From the NCBI GenBank assembly GCA_900199655.1, contig FZRE01000008.1, positions 1 to 64,000 of the forward strand: a DNA stretch of 64,000 bases, given 5' to 3'. The first letter of the stretch is position 1. Each line of letters starts with the position of its first letter. This DNA is from Prevotellaceae bacterium KH2P17. Lineage in GTDB: Bacteria; Bacteroidota; Bacteroidia; Bacteroidales; Bacteroidaceae. Below the pieces are notes generated by a model. That model saw nothing but the letters and a program-made list of their open reading frames with translations. It did no database searches and was not told the DNA's origin. This document shows positions 4,780-52,002 of this stretch, piece by piece. The position numbers were made by a program, and so were the translations under genes.

Positions 4780-4950
4780 ACCCCTCCCCGGCCCTCCCCG
4801 AAGGGGAGGGAGGACTTTCTCTTTGGCTCTGCACACAAGTGGAAAACCCCTCCCTGGCCCTCCCCGAAGGGGAGGGGGGTATTATCCTTGGCTCTGCACA
4901 TAGGTGGAAGAACCCCTCCCCGGCCCTTTCAGAAGGAGTGGGAGGGTGGG
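4778..4950. repeat. Three copies of GC-rich stop-codon palindrome (family A) in tandem
   Basis: The unit ACCCCTCCCCGG-CCCTCCCCGAAGGGGAGGG begins on the last base of the lipoprotein stop codon. It recurs near 4849 and, more degenerate, near 4913. Each unit contains the strong hairpin CCCTCCCC-GAA-GGGGAGGG. The spacers contain a shared GGCTCTGCACA sequence, so the whole block is a roughly 65-70 bp tandem repeat. Confidence 0.8.
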
Positions 4951-4986
4951 ACCGTGGCATTGCCTGCTCCCTATATATAATAAGGT

Positions 4987-5027
4987 AGAGCCACGCCAAA
5001 GTCTTTAAGTTGCTTTGGCGTGGCTCT
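4987..5027 (+). terminator. Hairpin terminator between convergent genes
   Basis: A perfect 15-bp stem (arms 4987-5001 and 5013-5027, 11-nt loop) is followed by TCTCTTTT. It sits between the plus-strand lipoprotein gene and the minus-strand HIT gene and could act for the former. Confidence 0.75.
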
Positions 5028-5120
5028 TCTCTTTTCATCCGCTCCTTTGGGCGGGCAGGGGTAGCTTCTTCGTTCCCTCCCAAAGGGAGGGTTAGGGGAG
5101 GCTTTTTTACTGTCAGACCC

Positions 5121-5516
5121 CTATGGCAGGCTCTCCTCAATCTTTTTGGCGATAGCCTTGAATTCCTCGTCCGAGAATTTGAGATGCTCCTTGCGGAAGT
5201 CCACATCGGCCTCGCTGTTCATGGGGATGAGGTGGATGTGGGCGTGCGGAACTTCGAGTCCAAGCACTACCTGGGCCACTTTCCTGCACGGAAAAGCCGC
5301 CTTCAGCGCCGTGGCCACCTTCTTGGCAAAGAGCTGGAACTCAGCCAGGTCGTTGTCGTCCATATCAAAGAAGTAGTCAACCTCTTTGCGCGGAATGACG
5401 AGCGTGTGGCCTTTGGCCACCGGGTTGATGTCGAGAAAAGCGTAAAACTTGTCGCTCTCGGCGCACTTGTAGCTGGGAATTTCGCCAGCGGCAATCTTCG
5501 AAAACACTGTACTCAT
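5121..5516 (-). CDS. HIT-family nucleotide hydrolase
   Basis: This 131-residue protein carries the histidine triad HAHIHL, with His 91, 93 and 95, preceded by GLEVPH. The N-terminal SKIAAGEIPSYK segment is typical of the Hint/PKCI branch. Members hydrolyse nucleoside phosphoramidates and adenylylated compounds in the cytoplasm, but the physiological substrate is usually unknown. The gene lies 56 bases downstream of greA on the same strand, so co-transcription is likely. The order greA-HIT is common in Bacteroidetes (recalled, not checked). Confidence 0.92.
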   Translation of the reverse strand: MSTVFSKIAAGEIPSYKCAESDKFYAFLDINPVAKGHTLVIPRKEVDYFFDMDDNDLAEFQLFAKKVATALKAAFPCRKVAQVVLGLEVPHAHIHLIPMNSEADVDFRKEHLKFSDEEFKAIAKKIEESLP

Positions 5517-7471: not shown

Positions 7472-10711
<3,240 letters not shown>

Positions 10712-47338: not shown

Positions 47339-48031
47339 TCACAGCATCTTGCGCGGGAGCTTGGCCACGAAGTCTTTCAGATAGAAAGGCACAAAGTAGG
47401 CCACGTCTTCGAATTGTTCTGTTGCAATGCGTTTCTCGGCCAGGGGGAACATGTTCTTGGCCAGCGGTTCAATGTTCTTGATGAAGTGAGCATTGGGATG
47501 GTTGATGGTTTCCATGCACTTTTCGGCTCCGTTGCCGAAGAAGTAGATCGGTCGTTCGTCCAGATATTCCTTGTAGGTGTCGCCGTCAACCACGTCGGCA
47601 TGGATAGGCCGCACTTCTTTCAGCGAGCGGTCGAAGAGCTGCGCGTACACTTCCATCCTGCGTGCGTCGAGCATCGGGCAGAGCAGGGCATCCTCCTCGG
47701 CTGCTATTTCGCGCAGCAACACGGGCACGCAGAGCAGCTCCAGCGTGGGCACGCCAATGAGTTTCAGGTTGCGGCCGTAGCAGATGCCCTTGGCCATCGA
47801 GATGCCTATGCGCAGTCCTGTGTAGGAACCGGGCCCGCAGCTCACGGCAACATAGTCTACGGGAATGGCGTGATTGTCGACAAACGACAGCGCCTCGTCC
47901 ACGTACACGCCAAGTTTCTCATTGTGATTGGGCCCCGAATGGTCTTCCTTATTGAAGATGCACTCGGCATCATTGCTTACTGCCACGGAGCACACCTTGG
48001 TACTCGTCTCAATATTTAATATGCACGACAT
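47339..48031 (-). CDS. tsaB: tRNA threonylcarbamoyladenosine biosynthesis protein TsaB
   Basis: This protein of 230 residues starts at MSCILNIETSTKVCSVAV; an in-frame ATG ten codons upstream lies close to the promoter and is rejected. The ASKHA-type N-terminal lobe includes NIETST and the central GPGSYTGLRIG motif. TsaB acts as scaffold with TsaD and TsaE in making t6A at position 37 of ANN-decoding tRNAs. It is the first gene of the operon and is divergent from yicC across about 90 bases. Confidence 0.94.
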   Translation of the reverse strand: MSCILNIETSTKVCSVAVSNDAECIFNKEDHSGPNHNEKLGVYVDEALSFVDNHAIPVDYVAVSCGPGSYTGLRIGISMAKGICYGRNLKLIGVPTLELLCVPVLLREIAAEEDALLCPMLDARRMEVYAQLFDRSLKEVRPIHADVVDGDTYKEYLDERPIYFFGNGAEKCMETINHPNAHFIKNIEPLAKNMFPLAEKRIATEQFEDVAYFVPFYLKDFVAKLPRKML

Positions 48032-48057
48032 GAGCTGATATATTCTATTAATAAAGT

Positions 48058-48097
48058 GCAAATTTACTCTTTTCTCCCTTATTTTTCGTACTTTTGC
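48058..48097. promoter_or_regulatory. Divergent promoters of tsaB and yicC
   Basis: On the minus strand TAAATTTGC (48058-48066) faces tsaB. On the plus strand TACTTTTGC (48089-48097) faces yicC. Both match TAnnTTTG. Confidence 0.65.
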
Positions 48098-48121
48098 AGA
48101 AATTTAACGCGAAAGAAAGTT

Positions 48122-48997
48122 ATGATACAATCAATGACAGGTTACGGAAAGTCGGTAGCAACTTACCGGGACAAGAAGATCAACGTCGAAATTAAGTCGC
48201 TCAACAGCAAGGCCGCAGACCTTTCTACACGCATAGCGCCCCTGTACAGGGAGAAGGAAATCGAGATCCGGCAGCTGGTAACCAAGGCTCTGGAACGGGG
48301 AAAAATAGACGTTTCCGTCTGGATTGACAAGGGTGAAGCCGTTGATGCCACACCTGTTAACGCGCAACTCGTGGAGAATTACTACCGTCAAATTAAGGAG
48401 ATAGCTGCCCGCACGGGCATTCCGGAGCCGCAGGACTGGTTCTACACGCTGCTCCGCATGCCCGATGTTACCACCAAGACAGAGGTCGAGGTGCTGGACG
48501 ATGAGGAGTGGCAGGTGGTGCGCCAGGCCGTTATGCAGGCGCTGGATGCCGTCGTTGCCTTCCGCCGGCAGGAGGGAGCGGCGCTCGAAAAGAAGTTCAA
48601 TGAGAAGATAGACAACATTGCCGCCCTGCTCGCCGGCATCGAGCCGTACGAGAAGAGCCGCGTACCCAAGATACGCGAGCAGATTGTCAAGGGCTTGCAA
48701 CAGATACCCGAGGCCGACTACAACCAAAACCGACTGGAGCAGGAGCTCATCTACTACATCGAGAAACTCGACATCAGCGAGGAGAAGCAACGACTGGCAA
48801 ACCACTTGAAGTACTTCCGCGAAACGATGGCAGAGACCCGTCCCAACGGCAAGAAACTTGGTTTCATTGCCCAGGAGATGGGCCGCGAAATCAACACCAC
48901 AGGCTCCAAGAGCAACAATGCAGACATGCAGAACATCGTGGTGAAGATGAAGGACGAGCTCGAACAAATCAAGGAACAGGTGCTCAACGCACTGTGA
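48122..48997 (+). CDS. yicC: YicC family protein (stress-linked endoribonuclease family)
   Basis: This protein of 291 residues starts at MIQSMTGYGK, the family's typical N-terminus. The YicC-like N-terminal domain (1-155) and the DUF1732 C-terminal domain (about 205-291, with ETRPNGKKLGFIAQEMGREINTTGSKSN) are both present. YicC proteins act on RNA in stationary-phase and stress physiology. In Bacteroidetes yicC is usually followed by gmk and nadD; here a DUF559 gene and repeats separate them. A family A palindrome starts at the stop codon. Confidence 0.94.
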   Translation: MIQSMTGYGKSVATYRDKKINVEIKSLNSKAADLSTRIAPLYREKEIEIRQLVTKALERGKIDVSVWIDKGEAVDATPVNAQLVENYYRQIKEIAARTGIPEPQDWFYTLLRMPDVTTKTEVEVLDDEEWQVVRQAVMQALDAVVAFRRQEGAALEKKFNEKIDNIAALLAGIEPYEKSRVPKIREQIVKGLQQIPEADYNQNRLEQELIYYIEKLDISEEKQRLANHLKYFRETMAETRPNGKKLGFIAQEMGREINTTGSKSNNADMQNIVVKMKDELEQIKEQVLNAL

Positions 48998-49028
48998 ACC
49001 TCCCCCGGCGCCTCCGAAGGAGGGGAGT
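48997..49028. repeat. Family A palindrome at the yicC stop codon
   Basis: ACCTCCCCCGGCGCCTCC-GAA-GGAGGGGAG begins on the last base of the TGA. It is inverted relative to the copies in the 88-bp repeats downstream, so the DUF559 gene sits between inverted palindromes. Confidence 0.8.
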
Positions 49029-49148
49029 GCCTGGCGGTTCAGGTTTCCTGTTGGGGCGGGATAGGGTAATGAGGTGGACTTGGGGAGAAAGCGGGAGATT
49101 TCTTTTTTCTCTGCAAGTGATAAGAATTTGAAGCTAAAAACGTGTTAT

Positions 49149-49622
49149 ATGGAAGAAGAGGATGAAGGACATGGCTACTTTGGCAACTACCATTACCAAA
49201 CCAGCGAAGCCTCTACTTACACTTTGCTGAGGCGTAACGCCAAAAGCAACCGGCGTTATCCGACCGAAGCCGAGGCACTTCTCTGGGAGCGGTTAAAGGG
49301 CAAACAGTTAGGTGTACGCTTCCGTCGCCAGCATCCGGTTTATGGTTACATCCCCGATTTCGTCTGCTTGTCCCTCAACATCGTTATCGAAATTGACGGT
49401 GGCTACCACACTTCTGCCGCCCAGCAGCAGGCCGACATGGAGCGCACCCACTACTTAGAGTCCTTCGGTTTCCGCGTAGTAAGGTTCACCAACGACCAAA
49501 TCCTTTACGATACTGACAAGGTAATAGAAAAAATAAAACAAACAATGACCAAACAATCAGCCCCAACCCCGCAAGGCACCCCCCTCCTTCGGAGGGGCCG
49601 GGGGAGGTTAAAAATTAAATAA
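49149..49622 (+). CDS. DUF559 endonuclease-fold protein
   Basis: This protein of 157 residues starts at MEEEDEGHGYFG; an open frame upstream to 49074 lacks conservation features. The core LLRRNAKSNRRYPTEAEALL, VRFRRQHPVYGYIPDFVC and IVIEIDGGYH matches DUF559, a PD-(D/E)xK fold related to very-short-patch repair endonucleases. Candidate catalytic residues are the Glu in TEAEALLW, the Asp in PDFVC and the Glu in IEIDGGYH. The last 25 residues (MTKQSAPTPQGTPLLRRGRG and after) are encoded by the first 88-bp repeat unit. The gene interrupts the usual yicC-gmk order and is bracketed by inverted palindromes, which suggests it moved in as a unit. Confidence 0.82.
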   Translation: MEEEDEGHGYFGNYHYQTSEASTYTLLRRNAKSNRRYPTEAEALLWERLKGKQLGVRFRRQHPVYGYIPDFVCLSLNIVIEIDGGYHTSAAQQQADMERTHYLESFGFRVVRFTNDQILYDTDKVIEKIKQTMTKQSAPTPQGTPLLRRGRGRLKIK

Positions 49623-49965
49623 CAATCACCCAATGACCAAACAATCAGCCCCAACCCCGCAAGGCACCCCCCTCCTTCGGAGGGGCCGGGGGAGGTTAAA
49701 AATTAAATAACAATCACCCAATGACCAAACAATCAGCCCCAACCCCGCAAGGCACCCCCCTCCTTCGGAGGGGCCGGGGGAGGTTAAAACTAAAATAAAA
49801 AGAACCCAATGACCAAACAATCAGCTCCAACCCCGCAAGGCACCCCCCTCCTTCGGAGGGGCCGGGGGAGGTTAAACATTAAATAGCCCATCCACAATGA
49901 CCAAACAATCAGCACCAATCCCGCAAGGCACCCCCCTCCTTCGGAGGGGCCGGGGGAGGTTAATC
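49541..49965. repeat. Five 88-bp tandem repeats, each with a start codon and a TTCG hairpin
   Basis: The same ATG (in CAATGACCAAACAATCAGC) falls at 49545, 49633, 49721, 49809 and 49897, an exact 88-bp period. Every unit contains the hairpin CCTCC-TTCG-GGAGG-type stem (CCCCTCCTTCGGAGGGG) followed by CCGGGGGAGGTTAA. Units 2-4 encode free 25-residue peptides. Unit 1 forms the end of the DUF559 protein. Unit 5 forms the start of Gmk. Confidence 0.95.
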
Positions 49966-50517
49966 ATCTTCTCCGCCCCCAGTGGCAGCGGAAAAAGCAC
50001 CATCGTACAGTGGCTCATGAAGGAGCATCCGGAGCTCCGACTGGCCTTCTCCATCTCCTGCACCAGCCGCCAGCCGCGCGGCACCGAGCGTGATGGAGTG
50101 GAGTATTTCTTCCTCACTCCCGCCGAGTTCAGGCACAAGATAGAGGCTGGGGAGTTCCTGGAATACGAGGAAGTGTACGAAGACCGCTTCTACGGAACGT
50201 TGAAGTCGCAGGTCGAAACACAGGCTGCAAAGGGCGAGAACGTTGTCTTCGACGTCGATGTAAAGGGCGGTTGCAACATCAAGCAGCACTATGGCGACCG
50301 CGCCCTGAGCATCTTCATCCAGGCGCCATCCATCGAAGAACTGCGGCGCCGACTCGTGGCACGCGCCACGGATACGCCCGAGGCCATCGAAGACCGGCTG
50401 GCCAAGGCCTCGTACGAGATGACGTTTGCCCCGCGCTTTGACCATGTTGTCGTGAACGATAACCTGGAGCAGGCAGAGCAACAAACCCTGCAGCTCATCC
50501 GCGACTTCCTGAAATAA
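49897..50517 (+). CDS. gmk: Guanylate kinase with a repeat-derived N-terminus
   Basis: This 206-residue enzyme phosphorylates GMP and dGMP. The P loop SAPSGSGKST is at about residues 26-35. SRQPRGTERDGVEYFFL, the GMP-binding YGTLKSQVE segment and VDVKGGCNIK are normal. The first 21 residues come from the fifth 88-bp repeat (MTKQSAPIPQGTPLLRRGRG). No ATG, GTG or TTG occurs in frame between 49897 and the P loop, so translation must start inside the repeat. Homologues usually have only a few residues before LIIFSAP (recalled), so this is an extension of about 17 residues containing an Arg/Gly run. nadD follows 49 bases later. Confidence 0.93.
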   Translation: MTKQSAPIPQGTPLLRRGRGRLIIFSAPSGSGKSTIVQWLMKEHPELRLAFSISCTSRQPRGTERDGVEYFFLTPAEFRHKIEAGEFLEYEEVYEDRFYGTLKSQVETQAAKGENVVFDVDVKGGCNIKQHYGDRALSIFIQAPSIEELRRRLVARATDTPEAIEDRLAKASYEMTFAPRFDHVVVNDNLEQAEQQTLQLIRDFLK

Positions 50518-50566
50518 CCCGCACCGGCGGTTCCTCCGCCCCTCTGCCCGGCAAATCCTACAGTCT

Positions 50567-51223
50567 ATGAACACGCAACCCAAACGCACCCCTGCCGCTG
50601 CACGCCATGCAGAAAGCCTTGCCCGAGCCCTCAGCGGCGCCTCCGTGGTGGGCCTCTACGGCGGCTCCTTCAACCCCATCCACGTGGGTCACGTGGCTTT
50701 GGCGCGCCAGATGCTGCGCGCGGCCGGCCTCGACAGCATTCTTTTCATGGTCTCGCCGCTCAATCCCTTCAAGCAGGCAGCGCCCGACCTGCTTGACGAT
50801 GACCTCCGCCTTGCCCTCGTTCGCAAGGCCCTCACGGGCGAACCAAGGCTCATAGCGTCCAACTATGAGTTCCGTCTTCCCAAGCCTTCGTACACCTGGC
50901 AGACGCTTCAGGCGCTGGCCAAGGACTTCGCCGGCGTGGAGTTCGTGCTCCTCATCGGCGCCGACAACTGGCTGGCCTTCGACCGATGGGGCCACTATCA
51001 GGACATTCTCGCTACCCACCGCATTGCCATCTATCCGCGTGCCGGCTACCCGATAGAGGCCGCCACGCTGCCCGAGGGTGTGATGCTGATGGAAACGGAG
51101 CTGTACAATGTGAGCAGTTCCGACATCCGCCGCCGCGCTGCCACCGGTCAGCCGATAGCCGGCATGGTGCCTCCCGCCATCGAGAACGATGTGATGAGGA
51201 TGTACGGAAGTGCGAATGGATAG
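50567..51223 (+). CDS. nadD: Nicotinate-nucleotide adenylyltransferase
   Basis: This 218-residue enzyme makes deamido-NAD from nicotinate mononucleotide and ATP. The adenylyltransferase motif GGSFNPIHVGH lies at about residues 32-42, and the C-terminal VSSSDIRRRAATGQPI motif is intact. A 25-residue N-terminal extension precedes the usual start region (an internal start cannot be excluded, but none fits well). It follows gmk in the conserved order. Confidence 0.94.
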   Translation: MNTQPKRTPAAARHAESLARALSGASVVGLYGGSFNPIHVGHVALARQMLRAAGLDSILFMVSPLNPFKQAAPDLLDDDLRLALVRKALTGEPRLIASNYEFRLPKPSYTWQTLQALAKDFAGVEFVLLIGADNWLAFDRWGHYQDILATHRIAIYPRAGYPIEAATLPEGVMLMETELYNVSSSDIRRRAATGQPIAGMVPPAIENDVMRMYGSANG

Positions 51224-52002
51224 GCTGACGGATTGTAATGTACTGGTTTCGCAGCCTCTTGTGAGCCTCTTGACAACATGACCGTAGAACTTGCGGACGC
51301 AGGAGAAAGCAGGCCGGAGATTGCCGGATGCCAGCCCGCAATCCTGTCCAAACACGCTGATAACCTGCTTGCAGAATTGTTAAAAACCAGGTTATAAGTT
51401 GACAAACACCCCTTCCTGTTTTGCGACAGAAGCCAACAAAGCCACAGCAGGGGCGAAAAACGCGCTGTTTTCCGTATTTTCATAAAGCTCTGATAATCAG
51501 CTGTTTGTATTTCTTTCGTATTCTTTTGACGGCTTGAAAACAGTCTTTGGGGATGTTGGAAGATAGTTTTTGGGGGCTTAAAGCATGTAAATTGCATTGC
51601 GAAAGCACAGCTTCGGCCCCGTTGATGCTATCCTTCAACGGGCTTGAAGCTATCTTTCAACGAACTTGAAGCAATCCTTCGGCGGGCTTGAAGCATGCCT
51701 TATGGCGCCTGAAGCATAGCAACGGGAAGCTGAAGGGCGTGTTTCGGGCTGTTTGGCAGTCTCTTTCAACGGTTCAGGAAGTGTTAAATAACGGTCATAT
51801 TTTATGACAATTTCCGCCTTGAAACAACAGTGGCTTACTGTTGCTTCACAGTCTCAAGGTTCCGGGAGCCTAAGACCGAAACGGCTGCTTGCAGCAGTCG
51901 GCGGCTCTGCTACCGGGCTGTGGCTGCGCCAAAAGAGCGGAAGGCAAGCGGGCGCAAGTGTTAATTCGCCTCGCGAACCTTGTTATATCCGGAAAAAAAG
52001 AG
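51224..52002. other. 780-bp region without a convincing gene
   Basis: The region contains one TTCAA array (51634-51714). An open frame on the minus strand (51148-51597) overlaps nadD antisense and has no family features. Otherwise I see nothing to annotate. Confidence 0.6.
51634..51714. repeat. TTCAA-TTGAA palindrome array, 22-bp period, locus 5
   Basis: Units start at 51634, 51656, 51678 and, degenerate, 51700 (22-bp period). The spacers read GCTATCT and GCAATCC. Confidence 0.85.

Follow-up and report, generated by a model that had tools for sequence, protein, structure and literature searches.

The locus raises the question of what the tandem repeat is from which gmk, the gene for guanylate kinase, takes its start codon. 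The window, meaning the whole stretch of 64,000 nucleotides from Prevotellaceae bacterium KH2P17 that was analysed (contig FZRE01000008.1), carries ahead of gmk five direct 88-bp units that span 49529-49968 with a spacing of 88/88/88, as identified by a repeat search of the window and by TRF (period 88, 4.8 copies, 94% matches, 0% indels); the number of units was read from a 440-bp array in a 40-contig draft assembly and is thus provisional. Every unit has an ATG (at 49545, 49633, 49721, 49809 and 49897), and reading of the frames bore out what a first-pass annotation of this DNA had claimed for them. Unit 1 forms the C-terminus of a DUF559 protein, the stop of which ends at 49622, units 2 to 4 are separate ORFs for free peptides of 25 residues, with 10 nt between each stop and the next ATG, and unit 5 continues into gmk. 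The preceding stop in the Gmk frame ends at 49875, and 49897 is the sole ATG, GTG or TTG ahead of the P loop, confirming that the last repeat supplies the Gmk start; the repeat-derived N-terminal extension was confirmed also, since the repeat contributes the Gmk start codon and roughly the first 21 codons. In 15 of the 16 tandem arrays counted in the window (18 TRF rows), the period is divisible by 22 bp (22, 44, 66 or 88); the sole exception is a 7/21-bp array at 10651-10711.

What the first-pass annotation overlooked is the nature of the repeats. Each unit holds a common stretch of 41 nt, an inverted copy of which, identical at 38 of 41 positions, is located at 48997-49037, where it overlaps the final base of the yicC stop codon. 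An element that is bounded by terminal inverted repeats (TIRs) and contains the DUF559 gene therefore separates yicC from gmk (Table 1). The element measures 965 bp end to end, from the left TIR through the DUF559 gene to the outermost right TIR, and its TIRs comprise a G/C run on the outside and a palindrome on the inside. The array is a lineage-specific amplification of the 3' end of this nuclease element. Elements that lack DUF559 in the window's genome also show tandem TIRs, for example before der. No DUF559 gene lies between the facing left and right TIRs at about 2404-2760 of locus L100 (G000:C37; the argC/argD gap, by reading) and at about 4800-5360 of locus L093 (G000:C10, before der), both ends being tandem in the latter and the right end occurring twice, 88 bp apart; both loci are internally deleted elements. 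Around position 1027 of locus L101 (G000:C37:15424), a gene ending TSPYPSEGGEL takes both its C-terminus and its stop codon from a palindrome.

Table 1. Features of the yicC-gmk region, in window coordinates.
Feature	Position	Strand	Basis
yicC (upstream gene; stop 48995-48997; start taken as first GTG of ORF)	48056..48997	+	Pfam YicC-like_N and YicC-like_C; ORF list
Left terminal inverted repeat	48997..49037	+	38/41 identical to reversed right repeat
DUF559 nuclease gene, 157 aa from ATG (GTG at 49074 possible)	49149..49622	+	Pfam PF04480, E 1.3e-32 (ORF from 49074)
88-bp unit 1 (DUF559 tail)	49529..49616	+	Repeat search, unit comparison
88-bp unit 2	49617..49704	+	Repeat search, unit comparison
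Free 25-aa ORF of copy 2	49633..49710	+	Reading of units
88-bp unit 3	49705..49792	+	Repeat search, unit comparison
Free 25-aa ORF of copy 3	49721..49798	+	Reading of units
88-bp unit 4	49793..49880	+	Repeat search, unit comparison
Free 25-aa ORF of copy 4	49809..49886	+	Reading of units
88-bp unit 5 (bears Gmk start)	49881..49968	+	Repeat search, unit comparison
gmk, guanylate kinase (codons 1-21 element-derived)	49897..50517	+	Pfam Guanylate_kin, E 1.4e-40; comparison with unoccupied relatives
Outermost of the five right terminal inverted repeats	49921..49961	+	Inverted pair; ends where conserved LIIFSAPSG starts

The yicC-gmk junction was then compared across the genus. A gmk match was present in 112 of 120 genus genomes (8 without), and 110 junctions were fetched, two contig-edge or partial matches being left out; 107 of the 110 were scored by motif search, while L063, L111 and L115 failed and were dropped. 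The element occupies 13 of the 107 junctions, the window's own counted, and 94 are unoccupied. In unoccupied junctions the stop is often followed, after some 20-100 nt (much more in some), by a start such as MKGK and then the conserved core. A Met lies within 10 codons before IFSAPSG in 82 of these 94 junctions compared with none of the 13 occupied ones, the 12 unoccupied exceptions (e.g. L014, L021 and L036) carrying longer N-termini of other origin. The left TIR of occupied junctions starts at the yicC stop or no more than about 15 nt from it, and the right TIR ends immediately ahead of (L)(I)IFSAPSG or a few codons away. An intact DUF559 is joined in frame to Gmk via a TIR-encoded linker (e.g. 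PLLGRGRGR) in 9 of the 13, with the remainder having a separate DUF559 ORF (two: the window and L005), a broken DUF559 (L018) or a remnant of it (L027). The locus thus has TIRs, a nuclease gene, an ATG borne by the element and an open frame into Gmk, and lacks the usual start; judged against its relatives, the native short gap and Gmk start have evidently been replaced by the element. Initiation of the essential gmk would accordingly depend on foreign sequence, and to this extent the earlier suggestion that an essential gene leans on the repeat for initiation can be retained, but not the part that cast the repeat itself, or how often it recurs, as the device. C-rich stretches that resemble palindromes precede gmk in a few unoccupied loci, L006 and L008 among them, and in the element-free locus L058 (G070) the gmk leader is a short tandem repeat, YSEYSD-like in translation, before the native ATG.

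At least 22 named genomes with an in-frame DUF559-Gmk (21 plus P. jejuni) were found among the best 80 matches to the fusion; only these matches were retained, and the sample of named genomes is therefore biased towards occupied junctions. Cultured strains that carry the fusion include Hoylesella oralis ATCC 33269, H. timonensis, Segatella baroniae, S. maculosa and Prevotella jejuni, and Prevotella sp. KH2C16 and DNF00663 also have an in-frame DUF559-Gmk. A structural model of the H. oralis fusion, with a weak pTM of 0.47 and with residues 132-152 at pLDDT below 50, hints at a poorly ordered linker joining the DUF559 and Gmk parts. Additionally, in Prevotella sp. RUI122 (L311) and P. jejuni (L277) a gene that reads as nadD, located 3' of gmk, has a palindrome-like N-extension, e.g. 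YPQGAPLLGRGRGR, ahead of GLFGGSFNPIH, and a solo repeat seems to supply the nadD start in these two genomes too.

The DUF559 protein of the window scored 112.3 bits against Pfam PF04480 (cut-off 20.6), and a Pfam search at E 0.001 with the 157-residue protein returned DUF559 and MTES_1575 only. Its structural model (mean pLDDT 81.2) matched the folds of DUF559-like 3hrl (Z 15.0), of the I-Bth0305I catalytic domain 3r3p (Z 11.9 over 96 residues; Foldseek E 8.8e-5) and of E. coli Vsr (Z 9.9), and a profile search gave 3hrl at 5.3e-32 and 3r3p at 1.9e-7. Residues E42, D70, E81, D83 and H87 (window numbering), which we take to be the catalytic residues of the DUF559 nuclease, are among the columns invariant in 21 sequences. 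The 157 residues are nearly all catalytic domain plus the TIR-encoded tail, with no extended DNA-binding region. Matches in PADLOC and PHROGs were weak, among them one to the PADLOC 'homing endonuclease' model at 1.2e-4.

DUF559 is present in 70 of the 120 genus genomes, and 123 DUF559 loci were examined, with one gene each and the 13 gmk loci included; the matches left out were the weak and partial ones and some others. TIRs with a score of 13 or more accompany 110 of the 123 genes, the TIR falling below the threshold in the other 13, compared with control values of 3 in 369 shuffled flank pairs and 2 in 93 gmk flank pairs from unoccupied loci. Flanks paired across different elements reached the same score in 32 of 123 cases because the TIRs form a sequence family, and, since this control shares the family similarity, the shuffles and gene flanks were added as controls. 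Upstream, 86 of the 110 elements have a codirectional ORF of 90 codons or more whose end lies close to the left TIR (median offset -2 nt). A downstream frame is present in 93 of the 110, with the ATG placed within the element in 40, after the TIR in 21 and in the TIR in 2, the frame fused in 28, and 2 others; the window's own element was tallied as 'ATG after', the aligner having taken TIR copy 1, and by hand its ATG lies inside the element, the tally being kept as printed. Elements that provide the downstream start or are fused to the downstream gene thus number 68 of 93, and no ATG occurs within 45 nt past the TIR in 51 of these 68, the other 17 having one. In 22 of the 40 cases, counted from where the DUF559 stop ends, the element's ATG stands at -8, -4 or +1, a geometry familiar from translational coupling.

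The host genes, named by reading of translations, include argC, argG, argB, ispF, korB, rnhA, trpB, ilvB, tsaD, aroK, folD and uppS, and hosts with the ATG after the TIR include, by the same means, der and hisS. Within the genus, leuS also bears a DUF559 insertion with TIRs (L185). Phylum-wide, DUF559 was found in 109 of 198 genomes, and of the 30 phylum loci that were read, 21 have TIRs at threshold and 9 do not. DUF559 lies within an open frame of more than 300 residues in 11 of the 30, with in-frame hosts, by reading, that include LeuRS (L235 and L238, both of which fall below the TIR threshold), MetH (L255 and L261) and restriction-modification proteins (L239, L241 and L249). A preference of the insertions for the most conserved motif remains an impression: in alignments with extensions, of which several windows were empty, conservation of host sequence beside insertions was not above that of the rest (0.75 versus 0.74-0.80 elsewhere).

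The reading preferred here, to which a probability of about two in three is assigned, is that the repeats arose by amplification of the right end of a homing-like DUF559 nuclease element that sits at the yicC-gmk junction and takes over the translation start. The element carries an ATG close to its 3' end and a frame open through its right TIR, and translation of the host gene would proceed in one of two ways, as a fusion with DUF559 or by initiation or reinitiation beside the DUF559 stop. In the window's genome, an 88-bp unit with an in-frame stop has been duplicated in tandem, parting DUF559 from Gmk and leaving four steps of stop, 10 nt and ATG ahead of Gmk. Spread among species at the one site could be brought about by the nuclease cutting empty alleles, with repair then copying the element in, and movement of the element may be recent. 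Points that weigh against this reading are the single short nuclease domain, the DUF559 genes whose TIRs miss the threshold, both LeuRS insertions of the phylum set included, the family likeness among the TIRs, and the host genes with an ATG past the right TIR. A wider proposition, which is put forward tentatively and at somewhat less than even odds, is that hairpin-TIR DUF559 elements constitute a widespread homing-type selfish class in the Bacteroidota, members of which would slot between a stop and the next conserved core and swap the native start for their own, such that an essential gene would fall silent if the element were lost, as a kind of 'start-codon hostage'.

The best placed of the other explanations, although an unlikely one, is that DUF559 serves the host as a Vsr-like nuclease for repair or defence, borne on cassettes and flanked by REP- or MITE-like palindromes by chance, and that its presence at gmk reflects ordinary transfer and recombination. 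A Caulobacter protein with a DUF559 domain has been described as Vsr-like (PMC12907096, as far as the portion of that article used here extends). The fold match to E. coli Vsr points the same way, as does the occurrence in the window's genome of palindromes without DUF559. Chance flanking is, however, difficult to reconcile with the finding of TIRs beside 110 of 123 DUF559 genes, and the many replaced starts, or in-frame inserts in other proteins, would be needless for a repair cassette. The copies also group by host gene, judging from a DUF559 tree of 121 rows (2 of the 123 excluded as short domains; the tree has few columns and many weak forks), in which 20 host-gene labels need 25 changes, against a least possible 19 and a shuffled mean of 60.2.

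In the same tree the 12 gmk rows need only 3 changes (shuffled 11.4), making the gmk copies nearly one lineage, as would be expected if a single ancient insertion at gmk had been inherited vertically and lost independently many times. The element is also common to two sister pairs at gmk, L026/L032 and L031/L073, in the tree of yicC plus gmk. Occupancy of the 13 junctions nevertheless amounts to 11 changes over the 107 rows of the latter tree, compared with a shuffled mean of 12.5 (43 of 500 shuffles as low), and is therefore near random over species. An rpoB tree, for which 17 genomes (11 occupied, 6 unoccupied; 5 of 22 requested had no match) were picked so as to contain occupied genomes and close unoccupied ones, interleaves the two states, with 4 occupancy changes, all forced by starred branches. 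Indeed, none of the rpoB bootstrap trees unites the occupied genomes, and the occupied G051 is sister to the unoccupied G067. Each loss would moreover have to rebuild a Met near the P loop, since 82 of the 94 unoccupied alleles have one, presumably via exchange with an empty allele. The ancient insertion is on balance rather less probable than even the repair cassette. In a search for tracts shared around the insertion, the first 120 nt of gmk are more alike among occupied species (2 of 300 shuffles as high), and likewise the stretch at 240-480. Copies that are faithful to their site and scattered over species are what homing would predict, the alternative being repeated loss by exchange with empty alleles.

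Returning to the array itself, the first-pass annotation had proposed that repeat number tunes Gmk translation by ribosome capture at upstream decoy starts, and an identical start does recur in series in the five units. This idea now appears very improbable: the in-frame DUF559-Gmk fusions of 9 of the 13 occupied species are without free peptides, and the chain of stop, 10 nt and ATG suits reinitiation equally well. The hairpin ascribed to each unit is indeed predicted in the isolated unit, but its stability is within the range of 200 shuffles and hence unexceptional, with fold z values of -0.69 for the lone unit (48 of 200 shuffles equally stable), -1.40 for unit 5 with its gmk context (19 of 200) and -1.82 for the left TIR (9 of 200). 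An Rfam scan over 48000-51300 gave no match at E up to 1. An assembly artefact that created or multiplied the units, as might be feared of such an array in a draft and as the first-pass annotation had itself raised, is scarcely credible, because the units differ pairwise at 2-13 of 88 bases and are therefore not a single unit copied by the assembler, and like junctions occur in independent cultured genomes.

If the homing-like reading is correct, a nuclease gene secures its persistence by providing housekeeping genes with their start, constituting a testable kind of mobile element, namely a bacterial invader that, rather than splicing itself out, rewrites where translation of an essential gene begins. 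It would also account for the DUF559 fusions and unusual N-terminal extensions met with in annotated genomes, and would provide a likely role for a domain of unknown function. No account of a DUF559-TIR element, nor of DUF559 paired with guanylate kinase, was found in the open-licence PMC literature, although absence from print is not claimed. The nearest precedent met in print appears to be the Rickettsia palindromic element (RPE) in gmk of R. conorii, the Gmk of which is reported to be translated and active with a changed affinity for substrate (PMC2229807, citing Abergel 2006), and the present case would be a second palindrome insert in guanylate kinase. RPEs, which are 105-146 bp in length, are likewise in-frame palindromic repeats in genes for conserved proteins (PMC2229807), and the TIR-encoded linkers between DUF559 and Gmk are inserts of this sort. 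The portion of PMC2229807 drawn upon mentions no nuclease gene for the RPE, whereas the repeats here form the termini of a 965-bp nuclease element, which takes the place of the gene's start.

I-Bth0305I, a Vsr-like EDxHD homing endonuclease, resembles the present protein in its catalytic domain, by profile and by fold, and in having one site that is occupied or empty among species (here 13 of 107 junctions at gmk, interleaved on rpoB). I-Bth0305I possesses an extended DNA-binding region (PMC3943268), whereas here a lone domain lies between TIRs; because that region is absent, DUF559 is not filed among the EDxHD homing endonucleases. MITEs and small repeats such as BrickBuilt of Porphyromonas and ERIC/RU share with the present family terminal inverted repeats, gene-less copies and ORF fusions (PMC10969869, PMC2759123), BrickBuilt being reported as strictly intergenic (PMC10969869). 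Those repeats are non-autonomous, whereas most of the copies examined here carry DUF559, as follows from the search having been made by DUF559. Finally, fungal mitochondrial endonuclease elements of the Allomyces atp6 type supply part of their host gene by replacing its 3' end, whereas in the present element it is the start of the gene that is replaced.
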